In this document: positions 40,740 through 47,929 of the stretch, one piece after another
Layout of the letters: every line of letters begins with the position of its first letter
Numbering within the stretch: the first letter of the stretch is position 1
DNA from: Pelodictyon luteolum
GTDB lineage: Bacteria; Bacteroidota; Chlorobiia; Chlorobiales; Chlorobiaceae
Assembly (NCBI GenBank): GCA_020721225.1
Contig: DYNE01000010.1
Coordinates: forward strand, 1 to 64,000
DNA length: 64,000 bases
Direction of reading: 5' to 3'
Made by a program: the position numbers and the translations under genes
Notes under the pieces: model-generated
Told to the model about the DNA's origin: nothing
The model's database searches: none
Seen by the model: the letters and a program-made list of their open reading frames with translations, nothing else

Positions 40740-40966
40740 CACTGCACCTCCTCGACAAGAATTCCTTCAACCTCATGCTTTCGAAGCGAGAGCCTGTAGT
40801 TTCTCACCAGCACCTCCATAGGGTCACCAAAAGGCGCAACGCCCTCGACCCGGATCACCTCTCCGGCCAAAACCCCCATATCGATAAGCCTTTTACGCAA
40901 TGCCGGCACGGCCTCTATCCTGAGAACCCTGCCGGCCTGCCCTTTTTTCAGTTCAGATAAATTCAT
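40739..40966 (-). CDS. feoA: FeoA-like protein (first copy upstream of feoB)
   Basis: This 75-aa SH3-like FeoA domain (MNLSELKKGQAGRVLRIEA, then LRKRLIDMGVLAGEVIRVEG) probably binds the FeoB G domain to control transport. Stop and start are coupled to feoB on one side and to the second FeoA on the other by short overlaps. Two FeoA genes in tandem occur in several anaerobes. Confidence 0.9.
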   Translation of the reverse strand: MNLSELKKGQAGRVLRIEAVPALRKRLIDMGVLAGEVIRVEGVAPFGDPMEVLVRNYRLSLRKHEVEGILVEEVQ

Positions 40967-41265
40967 GACAATATTCTCCTTACGATAATTTCCATTGCAG
41001 TACGCTTGTCAAGCGCCATTTTACCATCTCTTACCCTGAGCAGCAGCGGCACCCCGGGACTGTTCTGCACGACTTCTACAATCTGGCCGGGCGAAAACCC
41101 CATCTCGGACAAACGGGAGGAACGCTGCCCCCCCCTGCCGTACCGGCCGGAGACACAGCTGCCCTCCTTATCGTCACCAATCGAACCACCATGACGGCGA
41201 AGACCATGCCTCACACCGACAATCTCGCCAGACTCGCCGCAAGTCAGCATCGCTAAAGGACACAT
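40963..41265 (-). CDS. feoA: FeoA-like protein, Cys-containing N-terminal extension
   Basis: This 100-aa FeoA-domain protein has a core at about residues 30-98 (SGRYGRGGQRSSRLSEMGFSPGQIVEVVQ). The first 25 residues carry Cys residues (MCPLAMLTCGESGE) not present in the other copy. ATG 41265 is preferred because GAGGGGGAG lies about 6 nt before it; a GTG one codon upstream is also open. It lies between the porin gene and the other FeoA. Confidence 0.85.
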   Translation of the reverse strand: MCPLAMLTCGESGEIVGVRHGLRRHGGSIGDDKEGSCVSGRYGRGGQRSSRLSEMGFSPGQIVEVVQNSPGVPLLLRVRDGKMALDKRTAMEIIVRRILS

Positions 41266-42433: not shown

Positions 42434-43201
42434 CTACAGAAGCTTCTTCTTTGCAAGTAGAGCCTCCGGAGATGATGGATAAACGCTGACGACATCCCTG
42501 AAACGAGCCCGGGCATTTACCTGATCGCCTAACTGCTCGAAAGCAAGAGCCTGCTTGTACAATGCTGTCGGCCGTTTATTGCTTTTGGTGTATTTGGCGA
42601 TAACGACCTGATACTCAAGAACGGCTTTTTCATACCATTTTTCGTTGAAGTAGCTCTCTGCGATAGTAAACTGAGCATCGTCAACCAAATCCGATTTCGG
42701 GTAGGTCTGCATAAGCAACAAAAAGCTGTCCCTTGCCGCAGAGAAGCTTTTTTTACCAAGCTTCTGCAGACCATCTTTCAAAAGCTCACTATCAGTCAAT
42801 GCAGATGAGGATTTCACGCTTTCAGGGCCTGCTGAAACGCCAGCATCCGGCTTCGTTATTGCCGTTTTTTGCACCCCGGACCCAAGCAGCTGCTCGATTT
42901 TCAGTAACCGCGTATCGATATTATCCAACTTATGAACGAGCAGCGAATCTTCAAGACCAAGACGGCCGAACACCTGCTGATTTTTGTAATCCATTTCATC
43001 AAAACGGCCCTTCAGTTGAGCAATCTCATCACGAACCTGTTGTACATCTGAATATGAGGCCGCTGACTGGGATCTTACCGTTTCCGTTTCAGTCTTCAGC
43101 TTTTTGACATCATCGGCAACAACGACAAATTCCGACTTCGATGCGCATGCGTTTAAAACAAACACAGGAAGCAGCAATAAAAAAGCGCGATATGTTTTCA
43201 T
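42434..43201 (-). CDS. cpoB: Tol-Pal system protein CpoB/YbgF-like, lipoprotein
   Basis: This 255-aa protein has a lipoprotein signal (lipobox LNAC, C at about residue 19), a coiled-coil N-terminal half (about residues 28-105), then TPR repeats near the C-terminus (LFKDGLQKL-like and SYFNEKWYEKAVLEYQVVIAKYTKSNKRPTALYKQALAFEQLG). This order is that of CpoB, which coordinates peptidoglycan synthesis with outer-membrane constriction. It is the last gene of the operon. Confidence 0.87.
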   Translation of the reverse strand: MKTYRAFLLLLPVFVLNACASKSEFVVVADDVKKLKTETETVRSQSAASYSDVQQVRDEIAQLKGRFDEMDYKNQQVFGRLGLEDSLLVHKLDNIDTRLLKIEQLLGSGVQKTAITKPDAGVSAGPESVKSSSALTDSELLKDGLQKLGKKSFSAARDSFLLLMQTYPKSDLVDDAQFTIAESYFNEKWYEKAVLEYQVVIAKYTKSNKRPTALYKQALAFEQLGDQVNARARFRDVVSVYPSSPEALLAKKKLL

Positions 43202-43255: not shown

Positions 43256-43765
43256 TTACTTTACAACAAAATGCGCCCGCCTGTTTTTGGCCCAGGCCTC
43301 TTCGTTCTGGCCTTTGTCAAAAGGACGCTCCTCGCCATATGTAACCGTCTCAAGGCGTGATGCTGAAACGCCAAGTCTGGCTATAAATTCTTTAGCAGTT
43401 ACAGCCCTGCGATCGCCAAGAGCGATATTGTATTCAGAAGTTCCTCTGTCATCGCAATGTCCTTCGATAACAACAGATTTTCCGGCATTGCTCTTCAGCC
43501 ATGCTGCATTTTGCGTTAATCGACTCTGTGCTTCGGCAGCGAGAATTGAACTGTCATAATCGAAAAAAACATCCCCGAGAGGGCCTGTCTGCCATTCGTC
43601 AAATCCATACGATCCCGATGATGACACTGTACCTGAAGAAGATCCGCCCTGCATTGAAGAAGATGAATCTGTTCCGCTATCCGTAGGGGTTACGGCACTT
43701 TTTGATGAACAACCAGCCGTTGCTATCATGGCTATTATTAAAAATCCCTTAATTCCGGTTTTCAT
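43256..43765 (-). CDS. pal: Pal-like OmpA-family lipoprotein (second copy)
   Basis: This 169-aa lipoprotein has a lipobox TAGC near residue 18, a Ser/Thr/Gly-rich linker, and a C-terminal OmpA-like peptidoglycan-binding domain with [19 protein letters not shown] and [24 protein letters not shown] 43765 is supported by AGGA 5 nt upstream; an open frame extends further but has no sense. It lies 83 nt behind the first pal and after a terminator. The two share about the same domain but have different linkers. Confidence 0.9.
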
Positions 43766-43790
43766 GGCGTCCTGGTATTTAATCATGAAT

Positions 43791-43820
43791 AAAAAAAGGG
43801 CAGACATGACTGCCTGCCCC
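43791..43820 (-). terminator. Attenuator/terminator between the two pal genes
   Basis: CTGCCC and GGGCAG arms (43814-43819 with 43798-43803) are followed on the minus strand by seven T. Read-through would be needed for the second pal and cpoB, or they have another promoter. Confidence 0.6.
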
Positions 43821-43848
43821 ATAGGATCGATAAAGCAGTCTGATAAAA

Positions 43849-44316
43849 TTACTTACCCTGGCCTACGAAATGAGCCCTTCTGTTCTGTGCCCATGAAGCT
43901 TCATCATGGCCAAGAGCAAACGGACGCTCTTCACCGTAGCTTACTGTCTGCATCCTTGCAGGATCAGCGCCGATATTGACCATATAATCCTTTGCTGCGT
44001 TTGCACGACGCTCACCAAGAGCCATATTGTATTCGTTGGTACCTCTTTCATCGCAATGTCCCTCAACGATAAGAGTTCCCGCTACATTCTGCTTCATCCA
44101 GTCAAAGTTTTTCTGAAGCTGCTCAACTGCTTCTGCACGGAGTTCTGATTTATCGTAATCAAAGAAAATATCTCCAAGCTCAACAGAAGGTGGTGGCGGC
44201 GGTGGCGGTGGTAACGGCACAGGAGCAACAACGACATCTTTCTGGCAGCAACAGGCTCCAAGAAAGAGCATGCCAGGAATAAACAGGCTTCTGAGTAGTG
44301 GTTTTACGGTTCTCAT
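43849..44316 (-). CDS. pal: Peptidoglycan-associated lipoprotein Pal
   Basis: This 155-aa lipoprotein has lipobox LGAC at about residue 21, then a run of Cys and a Pro-rich linker (eight consecutive Pro, about residues 35-43). Its OmpA-like domain ([19 protein letters not shown], then [21 protein letters not shown]) binds peptidoglycan and TolB, anchoring the outer membrane. It follows tolB by 35 nt, as in classical tol-pal operons. Confidence 0.95.
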
Positions 44317-44351: not shown

Positions 44352-45686
44352 TTAACGGAACAAAGACCAGGATGGCTGCATCTGCTCACCATCCATCTGC
44401 AATAAACGCCTCTGGCTTTCTCCTGTCGAACTCATAATGTATAACTTCTTGCCGCCCTGACGATTAGACGTAAAGACTATCATACTGCCGTCCGGAGACC
44501 ACGACGGTGATTCATTCTCACGAACACCACTGGTAAGCCGTTTTAATCCCGTACCATCGGCATTTATAACAAATATATTGATTTCCCCACTTTTTTCCCA
44601 TGTCGAATATGCAATTTTATCGCCCGAGGGAGACCAGGATGGCTGCGTATTGTATCGACCACTGTAGGTAAGCCTGCGAGTCTGGCCCGACTGCACATCC
44701 TGAATAAAAATCTGGGGCATACCGTTTCTTGACGAAACAAAAGCCATCAGCTTTCCATCCGGTGAAAATGTAGGTGATACGTCAATTCCGCGACTGTTGG
44801 TCAATCTTCTGGAGATGCCTCCATCCATGCGGACAAGATAAATTTCCTGATCTCCTTCGAATGAGAGGGTCGTAGCCACTTCGCTGCCGTTTCTCCACCC
44901 CGGATCGACACTGACCCCATTCTTGCCAACAGCAGCAATACTGTTGTCGGACATGCTCCTGATATACAATGTAGGTTTTCCTGAAGTATAAGAGGTATAA
45001 GCAAGACGCGTTCCATCTGGAGAAAATACGGGAGTAAGTGAAATCGAGCGGAAATTTGTCAACTGCTGGATACCCTGTCCATCAAAATCACACTGGTAAA
45101 TCTCCTTGGATCCGGTCTTGTTCGATACGAATACGATCTTGCTTCCGAAATATGATTTTTTCCCGGTCAGCAACTCTATAAGATCGGCGCAAAAAGCATG
45201 TCCCATTGCACGAAGCTGATCTTCCGAACCGGTATAGGTTTTCTTCATCAGCAACTTTGTGCCGAAGGTGTCGTAGACCTCCATGCCGAGGTTAACCTTT
45301 CCGGATTTCCTTGAAACTGTACCTCCGGCATAAACTTCGGCACCTACAGAACTCAGCGCTCCAAAATTCAAGGAGGAACCCTTACCGTCACCTCCTGTCC
45401 TTATATTTGAAGGCGGAGGCAATACAGAAAACAAATCGGAAAAAATCAATCCATCCTTTATGATGGCATCGAGATTCTGGGCCAAACCGGACTCCTTGCT
45501 TCCTTTTGAAGCCGATCTGTCGAGAACAAGAGCTACCTTACCGGCTCCCTGTTTTCGAATTGCTATATACTCTCCGGCAGCTTCCGCATGAAGAGAAGGA
45601 GAAATAAAGACAAAACTCAGTAACATCAGAACCAGTACCAAAACAACAGTTGTACCACTTCCCTTATCTGGAACAATAATAGTCAT
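44352..45686 (-). CDS. tolB: Tol-Pal system periplasmic protein TolB
   Basis: This 444-aa periplasmic protein has a signal peptide (hydrophobic stretch at about residues 12-32), an N-terminal alpha/beta domain and a six-bladed beta-propeller of PD40 repeats. Successive blades contain the motif FSPDGTRLAYTS, FSPDGKLMAFVSSR, WSPSGDKIAYSTW and WSPDGSMIVFTSNR. TolB connects TolA to Pal. Length matches the family. It is separated from tolA by about 190 nt, unlike most genes here. Confidence 0.95.
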   Translation of the reverse strand: MTIIVPDKGSGTTVVLVLVLMLLSFVFISPSLHAEAAGEYIAIRKQGAGKVALVLDRSASKGSKESGLAQNLDAIIKDGLIFSDLFSVLPPPSNIRTGGDGKGSSLNFGALSSVGAEVYAGGTVSRKSGKVNLGMEVYDTFGTKLLMKKTYTGSEDQLRAMGHAFCADLIELLTGKKSYFGSKIVFVSNKTGSKEIYQCDFDGQGIQQLTNFRSISLTPVFSPDGTRLAYTSYTSGKPTLYIRSMSDNSIAAVGKNGVSVDPGWRNGSEVATTLSFEGDQEIYLVRMDGGISRRLTNSRGIDVSPTFSPDGKLMAFVSSRNGMPQIFIQDVQSGQTRRLTYSGRYNTQPSWSPSGDKIAYSTWEKSGEINIFVINADGTGLKRLTSGVRENESPSWSPDGSMIVFTSNRQGGKKLYIMSSTGESQRRLLQMDGEQMQPSWSLFR

Positions 45687-45878: not shown

Positions 45879-46205
45879 TCACATATCGATACCTTCAGGA
45901 GTAAACACAAAACCTATCGATAATCCTCCCGAACCATATTCCGAGGGCAAAGGCGGCAAAGGAGAAGACCTGTCAAGCGCCTTTTTCACCGAGTTGTTCA
46001 GATATTCGCTCGGAGCTCTTCTATCATAACGAATTTCATGTATCGTACCGTCACCCAGAATAGTAATATGCACATAAACCTCCATCCCATAACTATTCTG
46101 AAGCATTTTAGATGAAAATTCCCAATTTTTTTGAATTATCGCAGCTATTTTAACTTTATATTGATCAACGGTTCCCCCCCCCTCTGCCAGAACCGACACT
46201 TGCAC
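45879..46205 (-). CDS. tolA: TolA C-terminal part (out-of-frame continuation)
   Basis: This 108-aa reading frame carries a TonB/TolA C-terminal fold: TVDQYKVKIAAIIQKNWEF, then GMEVYVHITILGDGTIHEIRYDRRAPSEYLNNSVKKAL. It has no sensible start or signal and begins inside the glycine-rich end of the upstream tolA frame. It is best read as the second half of TolA, displaced by one base relative to the first half at a run of nine G. With eight or eleven G the two would be one protein of about 315 aa. Confidence 0.75.
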   Translation of the reverse strand: MQVSVLAEGGGTVDQYKVKIAAIIQKNWEFSSKMLQNSYGMEVYVHITILGDGTIHEIRYDRRAPSEYLNNSVKKALDRSSPLPPLPSEYGSGGLSIGFVFTPEGIDM

Positions 46206-46824
46206 CTACTCCTCCGCTGCCGCCACCGGTTCCAGATCCCTGACGCCTTCCCTGCAATGCAACTTTCTGATTAAGCCGTTCGAGAGCATTACCAATATTG
46301 TCCTGACGCTGCTGCTGCCTTGCCGCAGAGCTTTTACTCTCTACTGACTTCCTGAGTTTGTCAAAAGCCTTATTGAGATCATCCCGCTCAGTCCTGCTGA
46401 CCGGCGGCTTCGGCTCACTTTTTACCAAAGGTTTCTGCACCTCTTTTTCTGCCGGTTTTTTCTGCTCGATCTTCTCAGGAACTGTTTTTTTTACCGGTTG
46501 GCTCTCGGGTACCGGCACAACAGGGTCTGGCTCATTTCTCCGGGTCGTCTCCGACTCTTCCGGCAATGCTTCCGAAAATAATGGCTCGGTTTTTTTCTCT
46601 GTATCACTGCCCTGCTCTTCTCTGGATCCCGGCAACGATAAACCGCCTGGGCCAGGAAGTGAAACAAGACTTACATTTACGATTGTCGGCTGTTTTTTTT
46701 CCGCCCCCCAATAGTACTGGTAGAGCATTGCCGAAAAAAGAACAAACAGGTGAATACCTGCGTTTATAACGAGCCAAAACGTAAACTTTTTCCGTTCAAT
46801 CTGTAGTTCCTGAGTTCTCTTCAT
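46165..46824 (-). CDS. tolA: TolA N-terminal part (ends early at a poly-G tract)
   Basis: This 219-aa frame has a cytoplasmic basic start and one transmembrane helix (about residues 14-38). A long Lys/Glu/Pro-rich extended region follows, then a helical Gln/Arg segment and a Gly-rich end. This is the membrane anchor and periplasmic spacer of TolA, the energy transducer between TolQR and TolB-Pal. It lacks the C-terminal domain, which lies in another frame just downstream. It stops at TGA (46165-46167), 6 nt after the poly-G tract. Either a functional frameshift or a disrupted gene. Confidence 0.75.
   Translation of the reverse strand: MKRTQELQIERKKFTFWLVINAGIHLFVLFSAMLYQYYWGAEKKQPTIVNVSLVSLPGPGGLSLPGSREEQGSDTEKKTEPLFSEALPEESETTRRNEPDPVVPVPESQPVKKTVPEKIEQKKPAEKEVQKPLVKSEPKPPVSRTERDDLNKAFDKLRKSVESKSSAARQQQRQDNIGNALERLNQKVALQGRRQGSGTGGGSGGVGASVGSGRGGGNR
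46174..46182 (-). repeat. Homopolymer tract G9 in tolA
   Basis: Nine consecutive G on the coding strand cause the tolA frame to end early. Such tracts are prone to slipped-strand changes and to base-calling errors. Removing one G or adding two restores an open tolA. Confidence 0.9.
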
Positions 46825-46832
46825 TCTCGGGC

Positions 46833-47255
46833 CTACCTCTCTCGATCTGTTCGAACCGGAGCCGGTTCGGTCACCATGCCTATTTTTTCTATCCCCGCCT
46901 CCCTTATCTGAGACATCACATCCATAACAAGACCATAAGGAAGCGACTTGTCAGCTTTCAGGTAAACCTCTCTGGTCTGACGCACATCGAGAATGCCAGG
47001 CAAACGGTCTCGAACCTCATCAGCATCAAGTTGGTACTGATTGATAAAAACCTTACGGTTCCCGTCGATACTGATGATGAGGGCTTTTGCATCGATATCC
47101 ATTTTTTCGTGCGTGGTCTGCGGCGTATCGACTTTCACTCCATGGGTCATCATCGGAGCGGTCACCATAAAAATGATAAGCAGCACAAGCATGACATCGA
47201 CAAACGGCGTCACATTGATTTCGCTCATCAGCCCTTTTTTACCGGAAGTCATCAT
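46833..47255 (-). CDS. tolR: TolR/ExbD-family protein
   Basis: This 140-aa protein has one N-terminal transmembrane helix with the functional Asp (NVTPFVDVMLVLLIIFMV) and a periplasmic domain. It is a proton-channel partner of TolQ and drives TolA. Size and position (4-bp overlap with tolQ, followed 8 nt later by tolA) are standard. ExbD for TonB would look alike, but the linkage to tolAB-pal settles TolR. Confidence 0.93.
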   Translation of the reverse strand: MMTSGKKGLMSEINVTPFVDVMLVLLIIFMVTAPMMTHGVKVDTPQTTHEKMDIDAKALIISIDGNRKVFINQYQLDADEVRDRLPGILDVRQTREVYLKADKSLPYGLVMDVMSQIREAGIEKIGMVTEPAPVRTDRER

Positions 47256-47929
47256 ACGTTCCCTGCTTTATCTGTTTTTTCAAAACAGGCGGCAGCAAAG
47301 TCGCTTGAAAAATCATCGAGATCGCGCTCGATGCCCCCAATCTGCTGCGTAAGATAATTGTAACCCATAACGGCGGGAATCGCCGCAGCAAGCCCGGCTG
47401 CCGTTGCGACAAGCGCTTCTGAAATACCTGGAGCGACTGCAGCAAGAGATGCCGACTGCGTCAATCCGATATTGTGGAAAGCATTCATGATTCCCCATAC
47501 GGTACCGAAAAGACCGATAAAAGGTGCTGTATTTCCAACCGTGGCAAGAAAAGGCACAAGATGCGCCAAACGCTTGCTTTCAGCATTCGCCTCTCTTTTA
47601 ATAGCACGAGTGATGCGATCTTCTCTGTTACGGCTCTCTTCCGGTTTTCCAGGAGCACGGTACTCAAGATACCCTGAACGAAATACCCTGGCAAGAGAGG
47701 CGTTGCGGTATTTCTCACTTTCCGCAAAAACCCTGTCAAGATTGGATACCTCAAAAAAACAATCGAGGAACTCTCTCGATTCATGCATGGATTTCCTTAC
47801 AGTGATGAACTTGTATGCAATGATCGTCCACGAAAGCACTGAAAAAGAGAGCAGAAGAACAAGTACCAGAAGAACGACCGGTCCTGCATCCGAAACAAGT
47901 GAAAAAAGTCCAAATTGAGAATCAGTCAT
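47252..47929 (-). CDS. tolQ: TolQ/MotA-ExbB family proton channel
   Basis: This 225-aa inner-membrane protein has three transmembrane helices (about residues 15-40, 130-160 and 170-195) and the conserved segment ATVGNTAPFIGLFGTVWGIMNAF. It conducts protons with TolR to energise TolA for outer-membrane constriction at division. It is preceded by the large membrane kinase-like gene with a 23-nt gap, so both may be on one mRNA. Confidence 0.94.
   Translation of the reverse strand: MTDSQFGLFSLVSDAGPVVLLVLVLLLSFSVLSWTIIAYKFITVRKSMHESREFLDCFFEVSNLDRVFAESEKYRNASLARVFRSGYLEYRAPGKPEESRNREDRITRAIKREANAESKRLAHLVPFLATVGNTAPFIGLFGTVWGIMNAFHNIGLTQSASLAAVAPGISEALVATAAGLAAAIPAVMGYNYLTQQIGGIERDLDDFSSDFAAACFEKTDKAGNV

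Follow-up and report, generated by a model that had tools for sequence, protein, structure and literature searches.

Does the tolA gene on this stretch of DNA (64,000 nucleotides, hereafter the window) carry a genetic switch, a site of recoded expression, or only an accidental number of G's? Nine G's lie between an AGA codon and AAC, inside the glycine codons of a Gly-rich linker on the minus strand, and the reading frame changes at that point (Table 1). Taken together, the two frames encode everything expected of TolA, namely an anchor, a long spacer, and a TonB/TolA C-terminal domain, and the locus lies 3' of tolQ-tolR and 5' of tolB-pal. The first ~180 residues of the TolA proteins of relatives align to the 5' part (tblastn), while the 3' part matches PF13103 (TonB_2; E value, 5e-23), with a domain that is 80 to 84% identical to those of the nearest relatives. 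Both halves are otherwise open, and the G run is the sole lesion. The preliminary description of the locus, which placed the anchor and spacer in one frame and the C-terminal domain in another, had the coordinates and both frames right, as well as the arithmetic by which 8 or 11 G's would give one continuous tolA frame. Its statement that the remaining tol-pal genes are intact and in order is borne out by Pfam matches to tolQ, tolR, tolB, two OmpA/Pal-like genes, and a YbgF/CpoB-like tetratricopeptide repeat (TPR) gene.

Table 1. Features of the tol-pal region, in window coordinates
Feature	Position	Strand	Remarks
tolQ (MotA/TolQ/ExbB), intact	47252..47929	-	PF01618
tolR (ExbD/TolR), intact	46833..47255	-	PF02472
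tolA 5' part: N-terminal anchor, spacer, Gly-rich linker	46165..46824	-	219 aa; TGA just past the G run
G9 run, point of frame change in tolA	46174..46182	-	inside the Gly codons of the linker
tolA 3' part: TonB_2/TolA C-terminal domain, other frame	45879..46205	-	108 aa from GTG
tolB, intact	44352..45686	-	PF04052 and PD40 repeats
pal-like OmpA-family lipoprotein, copy 1, intact	43849..44316	-	PF00691
pal-like OmpA-family lipoprotein, copy 2, intact	43256..43822	-	PF00691
ybgF/cpoB-like TPR protein, intact	42434..43201	-	PF13174

The tandem arrangement of Pal-like OmpA-family lipoproteins 3' of tolB (43256 to 44316) is also found in the relatives compared. The C-terminal domain of TolA contacts Pal and TolB. 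If the break is real, general knowledge of the system indicates that cells would make the anchor and spacer without this domain and that Tol-Pal would be off. Two ways around such a loss were considered and set aside. Compensation by a second TolA was rejected, given that the only other TonB-type C-terminal domains in the genome are two matches that lie elsewhere, each in a separate open reading frame (ORF). The GTG at 46205, which has GGAGGA just 5' of it, is a possible start for the C-terminal piece alone; a piece without its anchor would be expected to remain cytoplasmic, and this start was therefore not counted as a rescue.

The preliminary description had raised phase variation as one explanation, and a comparison with other Chlorobiaceae disposes of its conserved form. 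The TolA C-terminal domain is encoded in 83 of the 86 Chlorobiaceae genomes searched, and all relatives with a contig spanning the gene have tolA as a single open frame (about 274 to 382 amino acids for the best match per genome; two shorter frames, of 129 and 210 amino acids, begin near a contig end). Only the window genome is broken. A separate search, directed at named GTDB genomes, recovered 33 tolA loci, many of them identical to those already found. A Gly-rich, GRGGGGT-like linker is common to the relatives and reads GRGGGGTADPYK in two of the three nearest and GRGGGGKADPYK in the third. It is built from mixed GGN glycine codons, and its longest G run is mostly 3 to 6. None of the 43 distinct relatives read at the base level has G9 in this linker, so the tract is not kept at the same position in related genomes and conserved phase variation of tolA was rejected. 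This is the outcome that the preliminary description itself had named as making conserved phase variation unlikely. The linker of one relative, L063, carries an in-frame G8 run of its own at the GRGG motif.

How surprising is a long G run at this site? When the linker was recoded by synonymous-codon sampling with the codon usage of 23 window genes, in which GGG makes up 11% of glycine codons, a run of at least G8 appeared in 2.8% of the recodings. At that rate, a few such runs would be expected across the family; for the 43 relatives plus the window genome, the expectation is about one, compared with the two seen (the window and L063). The window has three G8 matches, two of them from the tolA run, versus 1.85 expected in shuffles, and the 11 G9 matches genome-wide are ordinary for a family that ranges from 0 to 48. 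The tolA run itself is modest evidence, and judged by these frequencies it requires no special explanation.

Slipped-strand phase variation in this species, with frequent length changes and reversible on/off switching, nevertheless has precedents in other bacteria. Intragenic tracts of at least G8 are switching sites in Campylobacter (PMC6321876), and homopolymers of at least 8 are mostly variable in reads of Neisseria (PMC5084427). As in contingency genes, a coding G tract of at least 8 sets the frame in tolA, and it lies in a linker that is tolerant of length change. Against this, the tract is unconserved, TolA is intact in the covered relatives, G9 runs are not overrepresented in the genome, and the other coding G8/G9 runs are in frame and occur in unrelated housekeeping genes such as mutL. 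TolA is also not an exposed, diversifying surface antigen, and we found no report of phase variation in green sulfur bacteria in the literature searched. We consider phase variation here improbable. Switching confined to this species has a low probability, and nothing found in this analysis favors it. The more specific proposal, that in this single Chlorobium-type species tolA has become a contingency gene through a recently expanded G tract, strikes us as very improbable. Were the contingency reading true, outer-membrane integrity and sensitivity to phages and bacteriocins would be switched on and off within the population, and mixed tract lengths would make this an example of a free-living phototroph that switches Tol-Pal.

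The remaining G runs of the genome also bear on the quality of the assembly. Besides tolA there are eight further runs of at least G9 and a set of G8 runs; three of the runs of at least G9 lie outside genes. The frame is open on both sides of at least nine further coding G8/G9 runs, among them those in mutL and an NhaD-like antiporter (both named by eye). We compared the window (0 to 6 kb and 34 to 64 kb) with the syntenic proteins of five relatives. The window tolA is broken relative to four of the five (the region retrieved from the fifth ended inside tolA), and among the other window genes compared none was clearly broken. The remaining apparent frameshift signals were read as antisense shadow frames or cross-matches between pal paralogues. 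A generally indel-rich assembly was thus rejected: the in-frame runs argue against a wholesale indel problem and are compatible with a single miscall or a single real slip. The intact frames at these runs indicate that the assembly does not generally miscall long G runs, which leaves room for a real slip.

Several of these runs deserve mention in their own right. In the window, a FeoA-like protein (named by eye; 40963 to 41265) has an in-frame G8 run at 41128 to 41135. Outside it, the in-frame G9 run of the MutL-like gene (L076, ~2041; G000:C63:47040-47048) is a place where a slip would yield a mismatch-repair mutant. Also beyond the window, a run of 11 G's (L077:1221-1231; G000:C75) is found 7 bases 5' of a strong promoter-like pair, TTGACT-16-TATAAT (11 of 12 matches), which precedes a 557-amino-acid, exported-looking protein; this run is a better candidate than tolA for length-dependent expression. 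Two relatives with single-contig genomes have, respectively, a G16 run not crossed by any long sense-strand frame (L134:1993-2008; G002:C1) and a G13 run close to where an open frame ends (L138:1992-2004; G001:C1), both worth including in a survey of poly-G regulation across the family. The long G tracts of four relatives were often intergenic or near frame ends and did not clearly point to a poly-G switching system shared by the family.

Programmed or tolerated recoding, in which RNA polymerase or the ribosome slips on G9 and full-length TolA is made, would allow the gene to work as deposited. Slippage-type expression has been inferred for a poly-A run in dnaX of Chlorobium species (PMC3711429), and in AT-rich endosymbionts slippage is believed to restore genes with poly-A frameshifts (PMC3017870). 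However, the Chlorobium dnaX run is of a different type, and the homopolymer transcription insertions seen in Escherichia coli and Buchnera were all in A/T runs, with none in G/C (PMC5574713). No stable RNA structure was found 3' of G9 (z scores of +1.1 to +1.2), nor, by eye, a Shine-Dalgarno motif suitably placed for frameshifting there. The anticodon loop of tRNA-Gly(CCC), TTCCCAA, has the normal 7 nucleotides and is thus not of the frameshift-suppressor form. Neither the tract nor, as a programmed frameshift would require, the break is conserved across species. Programmed ribosomal frameshifting in tolA was rejected on these four counts, and we regard recoding in any form as extremely unlikely.

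The C-terminal domain 3' of the stop provides a measure of the age of the break. Its dN to the outgroup L014 is 0.190, compared with 0.205, 0.180, and 0.221 for the three nearest relatives, in which tolA is intact. The domain is neither decayed nor evolving faster, and the dN comparison shows no sign of relaxed selection. Given that it is as conserved as in the relatives, any break must be very recent, and we infer that the break is either recent or absent from the cell. A true pseudogene, lost in this lineage some time ago, would fit the broken frame and a genome without a second TolA-type gene. An old pseudogene was rejected on the conservation of the domain, which evolves at the slow rate of the relatives; the halves carry a single lesion, and the remaining tol-pal genes are all retained. 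We give long-standing loss of tolA hardly any credence.

Of the three options that the preliminary description offered for tolA, conserved phase variation and a programmed frameshift fall away, the latter for want of a supporting element and of conservation, and error or a recent slip is what remains. Judging from the sequence comparisons above, the break is very probably either a length error of one base, confined to this genome, or a recent, nonadaptive slip in a G run that grew by chance. We postulate that, in an ordinary tolA, synonymous codon drift would have turned the glycine linker into a G run, and that a one-off length at this run in the deposited sequence would then have broken the frame. 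How the two components divide is an estimate of ours: a length error in the consensus, whether from reads or assembly, has an even chance, and a real, very recent replication slip, carried by the clone or population that was sequenced and without an evolved role, is somewhat less probable. A break unique to one genome with intact homologues has the hallmarks of a singleton homopolymer frameshift, and in the GeneTack study singleton frame breaks backed by BLASTp were expected to be mostly sequencing errors (PMC3711429). The case serves mainly as a caution: a lone homopolymer frame break, seen in a single assembly, says little in favor of a switch, and comparison across the family quickly disposes of the conserved versions of that reading.

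Among known systems, the poly-G contingency loci of Campylobacter and Neisseria resemble tolA in having a coding G9 with out-of-frame sequence 3' of it; their tracts recur across strains, whereas the tolA tract is unconserved and known here from one assembly. The rescued frameshifted genes of Blochmannia and Buchnera share with tolA one homopolymer lesion in a gene that otherwise remains under selection. Their lesions, however, are in poly-A/T, where RNA polymerase slips, while the tolA run is of G, a type of run in which no such slippage was seen in E. coli and Buchnera. With the GeneTack singletons (PMC3711429) nothing distinctive differs: like tolA, they combine one genome, one homopolymer break, and intact homologues.
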